Origin: an uncultured Verrucomicrobiales bacterium
GTDB taxonomy: Bacteria > Verrucomicrobiota > Verrucomicrobiia > Limisphaerales > JAYPXF01
Direction: 5' to 3'
Assembly (NCBI GenBank): GCA_937893495.1
Contig: CALBIE010000823.1
Coordinates: 1 to 32,565, forward strand
Length of the DNA: 32,565 nucleotides
Shown: one piece after another, positions 28,592 to 32,565 of the stretch
Position numbering within the stretch: the stretch's first letter is position 1
Layout: each line of letters opens with the position of its first letter
Made by a program: the position numbers and the translations under genes
Notes under the pieces: generated by a model
Told to the model about the DNA's origin: nothing
Databases searched by the model: none
Seen by the model: only the letters and a program-made list of their open reading frames with translations

Positions 28592-29740
28592 TTAGGTGTT
28601 GGCCAAGGCCGTAATCGGAGGTCCAGCAACCGCAACTTCCATGAGGGTCGCGTGGATTTTCTGCCACGGTTGCATGAGGTCGAGTGTAAGCGCGCGAATG
28701 CGGTGGCCGTGTGTCGTAAATTCGACCGCAAAGTCTCGCGTGGTGCGCGGGTAGAGGAGAACGCCATCGGCTTGCTCCCAGCCGGATACACACGACCGCT
28801 GACGCAAGTAGGTGAAGAGCTGATACAGATTGGCCGGAGGGAGTTTGGCCGTCCCGTAAGCGCCCCGCTTGAGTGCTTGAGCGTAAAATTTCGTGTCTAG
28901 GATGATCGCGCGGCCAGCACCGCAGAGACATACATCGGTCTCCATGCGCGGCATCAGGGCCAGCGCATCCGCGTTCGCAGCAGCAAACTGCCATTGGATC
29001 ACCGGGGCACTGACATGCCAGTCGGCGGGGAGTTCGTGCCGGTAAAAGTTGAGAACGAAGTTTTCGAAGAGCGTCGATAGGCCGTCCCGGACGAAATCGC
29101 GGAAGCGCCGGCCACCACCGTATTCGGCAGGGAGCCAGTGTTCGTGAACGAACTCACAGATGTGCAGCAGAAAACCGTAGATGCGGTTGTTACGATGGAG
29201 TTGAACACGCCGGAAGTCGTCCGCGTGAAGTTCGATCTTCCGGACTGGTGCGAGCCAGCGAAGCAAGTCATGCACGTCGGCGCGCGTGAATGCATCAAGT
29301 TCGTCCGCTTCGTGGAGCCGCTGAAGTGTGGTCTTCAGGATGCGATTCGGCAGGGTGTCATATTCGAGTTCATCCCACGCGCAGGCGGCGCGGCCGTGGC
29401 GGAGCAGATTGCGGCGCAGCGTCTGGGTCACGAGCAGTTTGCCGCGCACGCCCGGGATTTCGTCCTCGCGCGGGAGGTAGCCACGGTCCAAACCGCGCCG
29501 GAGCAAGCGGCGCGTGCCGTTCACCAACACTCGGGCAAATAGATTGAGAAGGTCTGTTGAATCCAACGCGTCCACATCGGTCAGGGTGTCCTTTTCCTCC
29601 AACACGTCCCACGCGTAGCAAAGGAGGTAATAAATGTTTGCGATGGGAATTTCGCCAGCACCGGAAGAAACAAGGCGGGAGGCGGTGCCCGACCGGACAG
29701 GAGCGCCTGCAGATTCAGCCATATTGCGAATTGAGGACAT
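28592..29740 (-). CDS. mcrC: McrC-like 5-methylcytosine restriction subunit
   Basis: IANIYYLLCYAWDVL; LVNGTRRLLRRGLDRGYLPREDEIPGVRGKLLVTQTLRRN; YDTLPNRILKTTLQRL; nuclease motif METDVCL...AIILDTKFYAQ. Directly downstream of mcrB. Confidence 0.92.
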   Translation of the reverse strand: MSSIRNMAESAGAPVRSGTASRLVSSGAGEIPIANIYYLLCYAWDVLEEKDTLTDVDALDSTDLLNLFARVLVNGTRRLLRRGLDRGYLPREDEIPGVRGKLLVTQTLRRNLLRHGRAACAWDELEYDTLPNRILKTTLQRLHEADELDAFTRADVHDLLRWLAPVRKIELHADDFRRVQLHRNNRIYGFLLHICEFVHEHWLPAEYGGGRRFRDFVRDGLSTLFENFVLNFYRHELPADWHVSAPVIQWQFAAANADALALMPRMETDVCLCGAGRAIILDTKFYAQALKRGAYGTAKLPPANLYQLFTYLRQRSCVSGWEQADGVLLYPRTTRDFAVEFTTHGHRIRALTLDLMQPWQKIHATLMEVAVAGPPITALANT

Positions 29741-29756: not shown

Positions 29757-32563
29757 TCAATCGGCGAGCAACTCAGCCACGAGTTTTTCTACGCGCTCGC
29801 GTGAATCGAAGTATTCCTCCAACAGCGGCTGGATTTCGCCTGCGATGACTTCGCGATACCAAGCCTCATCCGGCCGATGGCCCTCTTGTGGGCAGAAAAA
29901 GCTGTGGCCGATGCGGAACTCCGGACCGAGATCTCGCTCCTTCTCAATCACTGCGTTCAAGTTCCCTACCTTCGCGCGAATCCGGCCAATCAACTCATCG
30001 GACGCGCTCCGCTCCTCGAGCCAAGTGGCGAACGCCGGGGAATCAAGTGCGGGTTCGAGGGTCACGAAGGCGAACCGACGGCGCAAGGCGTAGTCCACCA
30101 TCGCGAGGGAACGGTCGGCAGTGTTCATGGTTCCGATGAAGTGGAGATTCGCCGGCAGGTGAAACGTTTCATCGGGTCCTTCAGAGTAAGTAAGCGGAAT
30201 TGCGTGAGCGGGTCCACGCTTGTCGGATTCGATCAGCATCAGTAGTTCGCCGAAGATCTTGGCGAGATTGCCGCGGTTGATTTCATCGATGATGAAGAAC
30301 CAATCTCGATCTGGGTCATTCCGAGCAAGGCGAGCAAACTGATGAAAAACGCCGTCCCTACGCTCCAACCCCGTCCGGGTCGGACGGAATCCTTGCACGA
30401 AATCCTCGTAACCGTAACTCGGATGGAACTGAACCATGGCGACGCGTCGCTCATCACGTTTACCCATCAAGGCAAAGGCCAGTCGGCGGGCAATGAACGT
30501 TTTGCCGACCCCGGGTGGCCCCTGAAGGATGAGCGCTTTCTTCCGTTTCAGGCGTGCGAGAATGATATCGAGTTCATCGGGCGACATGAACAGGCCTGCG
30601 AGTGCGTCGTTTTTTGTGTACGGAGCGATTTGAAGGGACTGGATACCAACGTTTCGCGCATCAATAAGGGCGCGGATAGCCTCGTATTCGTCGGCGGTGA
30701 CAGCAAACAGGCTCCCCTGATTGCTCAAGATCGGTTCGCATTGCGCGAGGGCGGGCACGGCTTGCAACTCATCCCACGTCACCGGTTCGGCGAATTGTTC
30801 GATCTTCCGAAACTCTATCTCCTCTTGTCCGGGAGGGCCGTGAAGCGCCTTCGTGATTTCACAGATCGCGACAATTTCCTTGTCTGGAGTGGTGACGTAG
30901 CCGATGAGGAGGTCGCCGGGTTTGACAGCGGAGAAGTATTTGAATTTCTGCCGCTTGTTCCCGGCTTCGTTGTGCGACGTGTAAGTTTGAACCGAACCGA
31001 CCGGGGCGGTTCGGAAATCCCAGATCTTCGGATTTGCATTAAGCCACCAGTAACCGGTGCTGGACGGCACTGCAGTGCTTGCACGAAGCGGGTTGAGATT
31101 GAGCCCAACTTTGCTCGCAATAAGCTGGATGAAGTCGGGCTCGTTTGTGATGTCGGTCAAGGTCTTGGGTGCCATTCGGCTTTCCTCCGGCATCTCCCAC
31201 TCACCCTTCGCCAGCCACTTCACCTTGCGGATGTGTTTGTAGTGGGTTCGCGAGGTATCGAAGTCATAATCTCCCTCGACCACGCCGTAACCGAGGAGCT
31301 TGGTGAAACCCTGCTTGGCGAATATGATGTCTCCTTTCTCGATGTCGTGGGCGAATTGCCAGCAGGTGTGTGTGTCTATCTTTGGCAATGCATCACTCGG
31401 CCAAAGCTGTTGAAGCCTCTGAAGAATCTCGTCCTTGGTCTTGAACTGGCGCAGGTCGGCAGTCTCATTCCAGCCAATGGCCGCGATGCCCGTGTGGTAA
31501 AACTCCTCCCAGTGCTCACCACCCGTTCCCGCAGACCATGTCCAATACTTGCTGGATGCCGTAGCTCCGTCCGGCATCCGACCTTCACCACCTTCCAGAG
31601 TCTCCGGCGATTCTTCGTCCATCTTCTCCTGAACACGCTGAAAGATTTCGAGCGCTTCCGGCATCGACGGTTTTGCTTTCTGTCCCTCAGGTGTAAGCAT
31701 CCAAACGCCTCGTTTCACTGAACCGATGAGGCCAGCTTTGCTCAGATAGAACCGCGCCCAGTCTACCTGATTCTTGAAGCGGGAGGTTCCAGAAGACATT
31801 GTTTCGTTACGCTCGGAGTAGGATACGCCCAAGTGGTCGGCGATCCATTCCACCACGGCCCGTGGTGTTCCTGTTCCACCCAGGTCGCGCAAAGCGTCGA
31901 GGACAGGTCCAAAGAAGCGAACGAAGCGTGGACCTGCTGGGGAATCCTCCCGGAGAACCATCCCCGTCGTTTCCTCTCCGGTCTCCGCCTCTTCCTCCAC
32001 CAGACCTGATTCGTAAGCGTCGAGCGAGATTTGCGGAAAGTTCTCTCCGGCGCTTGCCACCGCTTTCTCCAGCCAAGAGAAGTAGCCTGCCGCCGTCTTG
32101 CTTTCCCAGACAATGCCGCGCTGTTTGAAATACCCTTGAGTATGCTTATCGCACGGGAGGAAACCTTTCGGATTGAGCCAAAAAAGGCTCATGGTCAACT
32201 TAGCTAGGCCCATGTGACTGACATTCAAAGCCTCATCAAAAAGTGCGTGGTTAAATGTTTGCCATGACTTTTCAACGCCTTCCCTCGCTGCTCGCCAAAG
32301 TGTCGGGATGTCAGTTGCTTTTCGGTCAACCAAATATGCAAAAGCCCAACTGTTCTGTGGGTTAGTGATTGGTATTCCGTCGAAGTCAGCTGGCACGGGC
32401 GCGGTCAGCTCCCATTTAGCCCTTATTCTCGCGAGGATTGCTTGCCGTCCGCTGACTGAACCCGTGCGATTGAAGCTGGCAAAGAAGGTGAACGGATCGA
32501 TTTCGGTTAGAGGAATTACATTTCCCCCAGCATCTCGATCATTGAGAAGGATGACCTTCAACC
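29757..32563 (-). CDS. mcrB: McrB-like GTPase/AAA+ subunit with multiple N-terminal reader-type domains; possibly incomplete at the window edge
   Basis: AAA+/GTPase core ILQGPPGVGKTFIARRLA, VQFHPSYGYEDFVQGFRP, FFIIDEINRGNLAKIFGELLMLIE, FIGTMNTADRSLAMVDYALRRRFAF. N-terminal region has a wHTH (Mrr-N-like), a PUA/ASCH-like and an EVE-like segment. First codon in the track is TTG and the frame stays open to the window edge. Confidence 0.9.
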   Translation of the reverse strand, partial: LKVILLNDRDAGGNVIPLTEIDPFTFFASFNRTGSVSGRQAILARIRAKWELTAPVPADFDGIPITNPQNSWAFAYLVDRKATDIPTLWRAAREGVEKSWQTFNHALFDEALNVSHMGLAKLTMSLFWLNPKGFLPCDKHTQGYFKQRGIVWESKTAAGYFSWLEKAVASAGENFPQISLDAYESGLVEEEAETGEETTGMVLREDSPAGPRFVRFFGPVLDALRDLGGTGTPRAVVEWIADHLGVSYSERNETMSSGTSRFKNQVDWARFYLSKAGLIGSVKRGVWMLTPEGQKAKPSMPEALEIFQRVQEKMDEESPETLEGGEGRMPDGATASSKYWTWSAGTGGEHWEEFYHTGIAAIGWNETADLRQFKTKDEILQRLQQLWPSDALPKIDTHTCWQFAHDIEKGDIIFAKQGFTKLLGYGVVEGDYDFDTSRTHYKHIRKVKWLAKGEWEMPEESRMAPKTLTDITNEPDFIQLIASKVGLNLNPLRASTAVPSSTGYWWLNANPKIWDFRTAPVGSVQTYTSHNEAGNKRQKFKYFSAVKPGDLLIGYVTTPDKEIVAICEITKALHGPPGQEEIEFRKIEQFAEPVTWDELQAVPALAQCEPILSNQGSLFAVTADEYEAIRALIDARNVGIQSLQIAPYTKNDALAGLFMSPDELDIILARLKRKKALILQGPPGVGKTFIARRLAFALMGKRDERRVAMVQFHPSYGYEDFVQGFRPTRTGLERRDGVFHQFARLARNDPDRDWFFIIDEINRGNLAKIFGELLMLIESDKRGPAHAIPLTYSEGPDETFHLPANLHFIGTMNTADRSLAMVDYALRRRFAFVTLEPALDSPAFATWLEERSASDELIGRIRAKVGNLNAVIEKERDLGPEFRIGHSFFCPQEGHRPDEAWYREVIAGEIQPLLEEYFDSRERVEKLVAELLAD

Positions 32564-32565
32564 CA

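Follow-up and report, generated by a model that had tools for sequence, protein, structure and literature searches.

A Verrucomicrobiota McrBC locus whose McrB probably carries several reader domains in series

We describe a locus in an uncultured Verrucomicrobiales bacterium that likely encodes a type IV McrBC restriction system in which McrB bears an Mrr_N winged helix, a YTH/EVE-like domain and an EVE domain in series, behind an N-terminal module common to many McrBs. The reader stack and the apparent exchange of one reader as a cassette make the locus distinct from known McrBC systems. The window, as we use the term here, is the whole stretch of DNA that was analysed, 32,565 nucleotides long; it is contig C823 of an 8-Mb assembly of 900 contigs with 6.7% contamination.

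Results

The mcrB-like gene lies on the minus strand at 29757..32564 (935 codons and a stop), and its 5' end is cut by the end of the contig. The original prediction had the position of the gene right but closed it at 32563; the frame ends one base further on. A search of the same genome with a profile of the leading module recovered the module's first 35 residues on contig G000:C514, at whose start the 36 missing N-terminal residues (MSFTWIPIYSEIAHKVLEFETRQGELLSLLAQMRSD) are encoded. The ends of C823 and C514 overlap by 4 bases, TGGG, and the reading frame is preserved across the join. The corresponding stretch is unbroken across the junction in L012, a relative with 83% identity (MSFTWIPIYSEIAQKVLEFENRQGELLRLLEEMRSEGMKVILLND). 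We infer from these sequences that intact McrB has about 971 residues.

The AAA+ GTPase domain (29772..30626, minus strand; residues 647-931) matches NCBIfam McrB with E 1.3e-94 and the E. coli McrB structure 6hz4 with E 1.2e-93, with an NCBIfam score of 317 bits that is below the strict equivalog cut-off of 637. Walker A (GPPGVGKT) begins at residue 682, in agreement with the roughly 680 residues originally counted ahead of the P-loop; Walker B (FFIIDE) is at 756, and the NxxD signature is canonical, with NTAD inside MNTAD at 813. The gene next after mcrB is mcrC (28592..29740, minus strand), which encodes a 382-residue PD-(D/E)xK nuclease partner (Pfam McrBC, E 1.5e-34; NCBIfam McrC, E 5.3e-94, 315 bits against an equivalog cut-off of 338). 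Its nuclease motif, ETD...LDTK, is intact. Judged from the sequences of its motor and nuclease, the locus belongs to the McrBC type IV restriction class.

The region in front of the GTPase had been divided into four parts, and all four are present where they had been placed. Two have Pfam families. The segment described as a winged helix resembling the Mrr N-terminal domain is an Mrr_N domain (31674..31925, minus strand; residues 214-297; PF14338, E 9.7e-22), which scores 77.4 bits against a gathering threshold of 29.5. The segment described as EVE-like is an EVE domain (30669..31052, minus strand; residues 505-632; PF01878, E 1.1e-6), which scores 29.1 bits against a threshold of 23. Its profile also matches the solved proteins 2gbs (E 1.3e-7) and 1zce (E 1.2e-4), both of which we take to have the EVE fold.

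The third part is a YTH/EVE-like reader (31095..31553, minus strand; residues 338-490) that matches PADLOC PDC-S02 with E 2.6e-17 and in which the Pfam scan found no family. An AlphaFold2 model of this segment, built from an alignment of 21 sequences, has a mean pLDDT of 93.5. Foldseek returned 24 PDB matches to the model with E<1e-3, at probability 1.0 and TM of about 0.4-0.6, and all 24 are YTH domains (E 1e-4 to 1e-3) or PH1033 (E 6e-5) or MJECL36. We take the latter two to be EVE-fold proteins. When the segment was aligned to the EVE family by hhalign, the probability was 4% (E 0.009, 47 columns); the model thus points to kinship with EVE at the level of the fold only. This part had been called PUA/ASCH-like. 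Assignment to the PUA superfamily stands, but ASCH does not: the Pfam scan gave no ASCH domain, none so named was among the best 50 fold-search matches, and EVE and YTH are closer to the model. Structure prediction with Foldseek, which had been proposed as a check for more than one reader fold, gives an EVE/YTH-like segment in addition to the Pfam EVE domain.

The YTH-like domain and the N-terminal domain of COG4127-type Mrr endonucleases are homologous. Open reading frames of L043, L047 and L054 have the domain fused to Mrr_cat, and we infer from this architecture that they are COG4127 members. The fold and function of the COG4127 N-terminal domain were left open by Kosinski et al. (2005; PMC1189080), and our fold assignment offers a testable reading for it.

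The leading N-module (32001..32564, minus strand; residues 1-188 of the cut frame) is all-helical. It is a common McrB module, not a known reader. The full module has about 220 residues, nearly all of them helical in an AlphaFold2 model of the L014 homologue (pLDDT 89), and its W, P and D are conserved as WxxP...D in an alignment of 16 sequences. It is present in 15 of 388 genomes of the window's phylum, in 4 of 349 genomes of the phylum of L017 (Rubrivivax; Pseudomonadota per its record), and in the McrBs encoded on Deinococcus radiodurans plasmid MP1 and on Proteus mirabilis pR997. Nor is the module confined to McrB, since a protein on a Parabacteroides plasmid (L115:4863-6344) combines it with FRG (PF08867, E 1.6e-20) and has no GTPase.

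A Pfam scan of 16 N-modules gave no family and no HhH-GPD match. By our own count, 27 of the 50 best PDB matches in a fold search are MutY, OGG1, MagIII and similar proteins, and 4 are RuvA, in a weak search whose best E is 0.74 and whose probabilities are at most 0.18. Alignment to HhH-GPD by hhalign (P 0.13) is no better than to unrelated controls. By eye, the WxxP...D stretch can be aligned to MutY with equal spacing. We do not claim the N-module as an HhH-GPD glycosylase, its profile being at the level of controls and the lysine not conserved; the models suggest at most a weak fold likeness to DNA glycosylases. Comparison with viral structures gave nothing significant, a tblastn search of phages found no N-module, and a search of viral contigs with a two-sequence alignment found no relative.

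In two relatives, the N-module is interrupted by an in-frame TAG (L012:3468-3860, titled Prosthecobacter, and L120:4145-4417, on a Deinococcus NW-56 plasmid). The codon replaces Q in the first and W in the second, a few residues apart. We considered recoding and rejected it on account of the different residues and sites; the two stops are probably independent nonsense mutations.

The proposed survey of McrB homologues bore out the architecture. The order N-module, Mrr_N, YTH-like, EVE, GTPase recurs in L011/L014, L012 and L013, three genomes besides that of the window and all titled Verrucomicrobiota; the L011/L014 McrB is 51% identical to that of the window over 950 residues. Protein identity across the four genomes is 58-93% for EVE and 41-87% for Mrr_N, and these domains showed no stop. 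Elsewhere the parts occur in other combinations. YTH-like, EVE and GTPase domains follow one another on two haloarchaeal plasmids (L113, L114) and, behind an N-module, in L064. Mrr_N is combined with the YTH-like domain in L016 (titled Myxococcaceae), the N-module with the YTH-like domain in L066, L069 and L073, and the YTH-like domain is placed before the N-module on a Rhodococcus plasmid (L121). Single-reader McrBs have EVE alone (L122, Butyrivibrio) or Mrr_N alone (L118, Rhizobium), and in L070 and L075 none of Mrr_N, YTH-like and EVE was recognised in front of the GTPase. Because partial orders recur in haloarchaeal plasmids, Myxococcota, Rhodococcus and others, the window's McrB is one arrangement within a modular family. 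The premise that a classical McrB has one reader is right for E. coli, but multi-reader McrBs recur in our sample, and EVE-McrBs with further domains were already on record (PMC7641849).

Some McrBs in the sample are built differently. The YTH-like reader is inserted within the GTPase in L116:4848-7763 and L127:1-2187 (Deinococcus radiodurans plasmid MP1 among them), which is a different way of attaching the YTH-like cassette; in L067:4310-6800 such an insertion is apparent in a gene split over two frames. Two McrBs are even longer than that of the window (L064:4182-7727, 1182 residues; L065:5576-8929, 1118 residues). In them, about 160-190 residues ahead of the N-module and 200-250 between it and the YTH-like domain are unassigned. 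These extra segments are possibly further readers.

The YTH-like segment differs from the rest of the gene in its divergence. At the nucleotide level, L012 is 82-92% identical to the window in the other domains, but identity drops to 74% over the YTH-like segment and to 33% over the linker that follows; for L014 and the window, the figures are 48-65% in the other domains and 75% within the segment. Third-position identity behaves in the same way, at 0.53 within the segment versus 0.75 elsewhere for L012 (p 2.6e-7) and 0.55 versus 0.39 for L014 (p 2e-4). Within the segment it is nearly equal for all comparisons, 0.51-0.56. In sliding identity, the cassette boundaries fall at about residues 331-345 and 490-503. 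Opposite shifts of divergence in the same segment are not something that a constant relative rate can produce, and these identities are most simply read as an exchange of the YTH-like cassette in one lineage: one reader appears to have been exchanged among related bacteria. In an AU test on the short YTH-like alignment, the window and L012 as sisters were not rejected (p 0.34), so exchange rests on the contrast in distance, not on topology. One reader swapped within otherwise close genes amounts to a natural experiment in which a switch of specificity can be tested.

A degraded N6-methyltransferase-like remnant of 120 residues (PF02384, E 0.0018) lies directly upstream of mcrB on C514 (L063:111-470), with apparent housekeeping genes beyond it. 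Downstream of mcrBC, the window holds ordinary chromosomal genes, such as one for a peptidyl-prolyl isomerase. Ahead of mcrB in L013 are an Eco57I-type methylase, an AAA ATPase and an HNH gene. The host genome as a whole, in an assembly contaminated to the extent given above, has about ten N6_Mtase-family loci, four N6_N4_Mtase matches and two C5-methyltransferase loci.

Discussion

Among defence systems, EVE is fused most commonly to McrB, often with further domains in the protein (Bell, Wolf and Koonin, 2020; PMC7641849). The McrB of the window resembles these fusions in having EVE ahead of the GTPase and McrC as partner, and differs in adding a second domain of the EVE/YTH superfamily, Mrr_N and the N-module in a fixed order. 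New with respect to the earlier EVE-McrB literature are the match of the YTH-like domain to the COG4127-type N-terminal domain and the apparently separate genealogy of the YTH-like segment. A census of nearly 34,000 McrBC homologues has been published (Bell et al., 2024; PMC11090510); our search of main texts found no paper naming the exact five-part order.

Several characterised proteins share parts of this design. E. coli K-12 McrBC is alike in GTPase and McrC, but its McrB has a single DUF3578 reader (PMC7641849) where the window's has several. The McrBs of Thermococcus gammatolerans (YTH, 6mA) and Staphylothermus marinus (PUA-like) likewise set a PUA-superfamily reader on the McrB motor, each with one reader in its published description (PMC12707154, PMC7680126), compared with several in the window; the window's YTH-like domain gave no sequence-level match to solved chains of this kind. 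The COG4127/PDC-S02 endonucleases have a homologous YTH-like domain, but fused to a nuclease instead of a GTPase motor. HhiV4I (PUA-wH-HNH) also combines a PUA-superfamily reader and a winged-helix sensor in one restriction protein (PMC11037411), although it is a single-chain nuclease, unlike the McrBC of the window. The uncharacterised NTD-wH-NTPase fusions are paired with McrC as in the window and also contain a winged helix (PMC11037411).

In McrBC systems, modified DNA is bound by the N-terminal readers, hexamers of McrB use GTP to translocate, and McrC makes the cut (PMC7680126, PMC12707154). In the mechanism that we propose, a hexamer of the window's McrB would display every reader six times. 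The YTH-like and EVE domains would flip and inspect modified bases; base flipping is described for PUA-superfamily readers (PMC11037411). The former would perhaps serve for N6-methyladenine and the latter for cytosines of the 5mC/5hmC type. The YTH domain of T. gammatolerans McrB reads 6mA (PMC12707154, PMC7680126), and the EVE domain of VcaM4I reads 5mC/5hmC (PMC11037411). The Mrr_N winged helix and the N-module could contribute affinity for the duplex or sequence context. Translocation, driven by GTP and stimulated by McrC, would then bring complexes together, and McrC would cut. The YTH-like reader would act as an exchangeable specificity cassette. Individual readers may, however, be vestigial or structural, and the YTH-like and EVE domains could read other bases than their distant relatives do.

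Since the host has genes for 6mA and 5mC methyltransferases, a reader firing on any 6mA or 5mC would be expected to attack the host itself, and these genes favour a reading that is context-restricted, combined or specific for hypermodification. Combinatorial recognition of hypermodified DNA, as originally suggested, is plausible, and it becomes somewhat likelier because free restriction of 6mA or 5mC would harm a methylating host. If the readers cooperate, this modification-dependent system would respond to marks in combination, and that would account for how a much-methylated host can restrict modified phage DNA. A stricter scheme would make McrB a coincidence detector, firing only where YTH-read and EVE-read bases lie close together or on a hypermodified genome that satisfies both, with a glycosylase-like (HhH) N-module inspecting bases too and a swap of the YTH-like cassette changing the code; we think this improbable.

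Another possibility, to which we give appreciable weight while leaning against it, is that a single domain, most likely the YTH-like one, sets specificity. EVE and Mrr_N would then serve general DNA binding or assembly, or be left over from earlier fusions, and there would be no combinatorial reading. The same GTPase does occur with the YTH-like domain as the only one of the three (L066, L069, L073), with just Mrr_N (L118) or just EVE (L122), or without any of the three being recognised (L070, L075). Against this, four genomes retain all three domains, and EVE and Mrr_N are normally conserved over the ranges of identity given above, with no stop found in them.

Alternatively, the system may be LlaJI-like, an McrBC that cleaves a specific sequence in unmodified DNA and is kept in check by cognate methyltransferases, its readers sensing a self-mark or a bare site. 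Methyltransferase-associated McrB groups have been described (Bell et al., 2024; PMC11090510), and both the N6-methyltransferase remnant on the adjoining contig and the Eco57I-type methylase gene upstream in L013 would fit such a system. We nevertheless consider it unlikely: no intact methyltransferase gene is seen beside the window's mcrBC, none was recognised among the part of the mcrBC-flanking frames scanned in L011/L014 and L012, and EVE and YTH folds are readers of modification where they have been tested.

It is very doubtful that the modules target RNA instead of DNA, as has been proposed for McrB relatives of the CoCoNuT type. RNA is also read by YTH and EVE domains (PMC11090510, PMC7641849), but the GTPase has NxxD where the CoCoNuT branch has NxD, neither McrB nor McrC gave a HEPN or OB domain in Pfam and NCBIfam scans, and McrC has its nuclease motif intact. 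Membership in CoCoNuT, defined by NxD and long coiled coils (PMC11090510), was rejected on the NTAD motif. Finally, although the gene sits at a contig end in a fragmented and partly contaminated assembly, an artefact of assembly or gene fusion as the source of the long N-terminus is ruled out for practical purposes by the same order in three other genome records and by the missing start recovered in frame on a second contig and confirmed by L012.

On Proteus mirabilis pR997 (L117:4506-8685), a mobilizable element carries an N-module McrB and its McrC with a further annotated restriction endonuclease, and the set adjoins restriction genes of type I and BstXI type.
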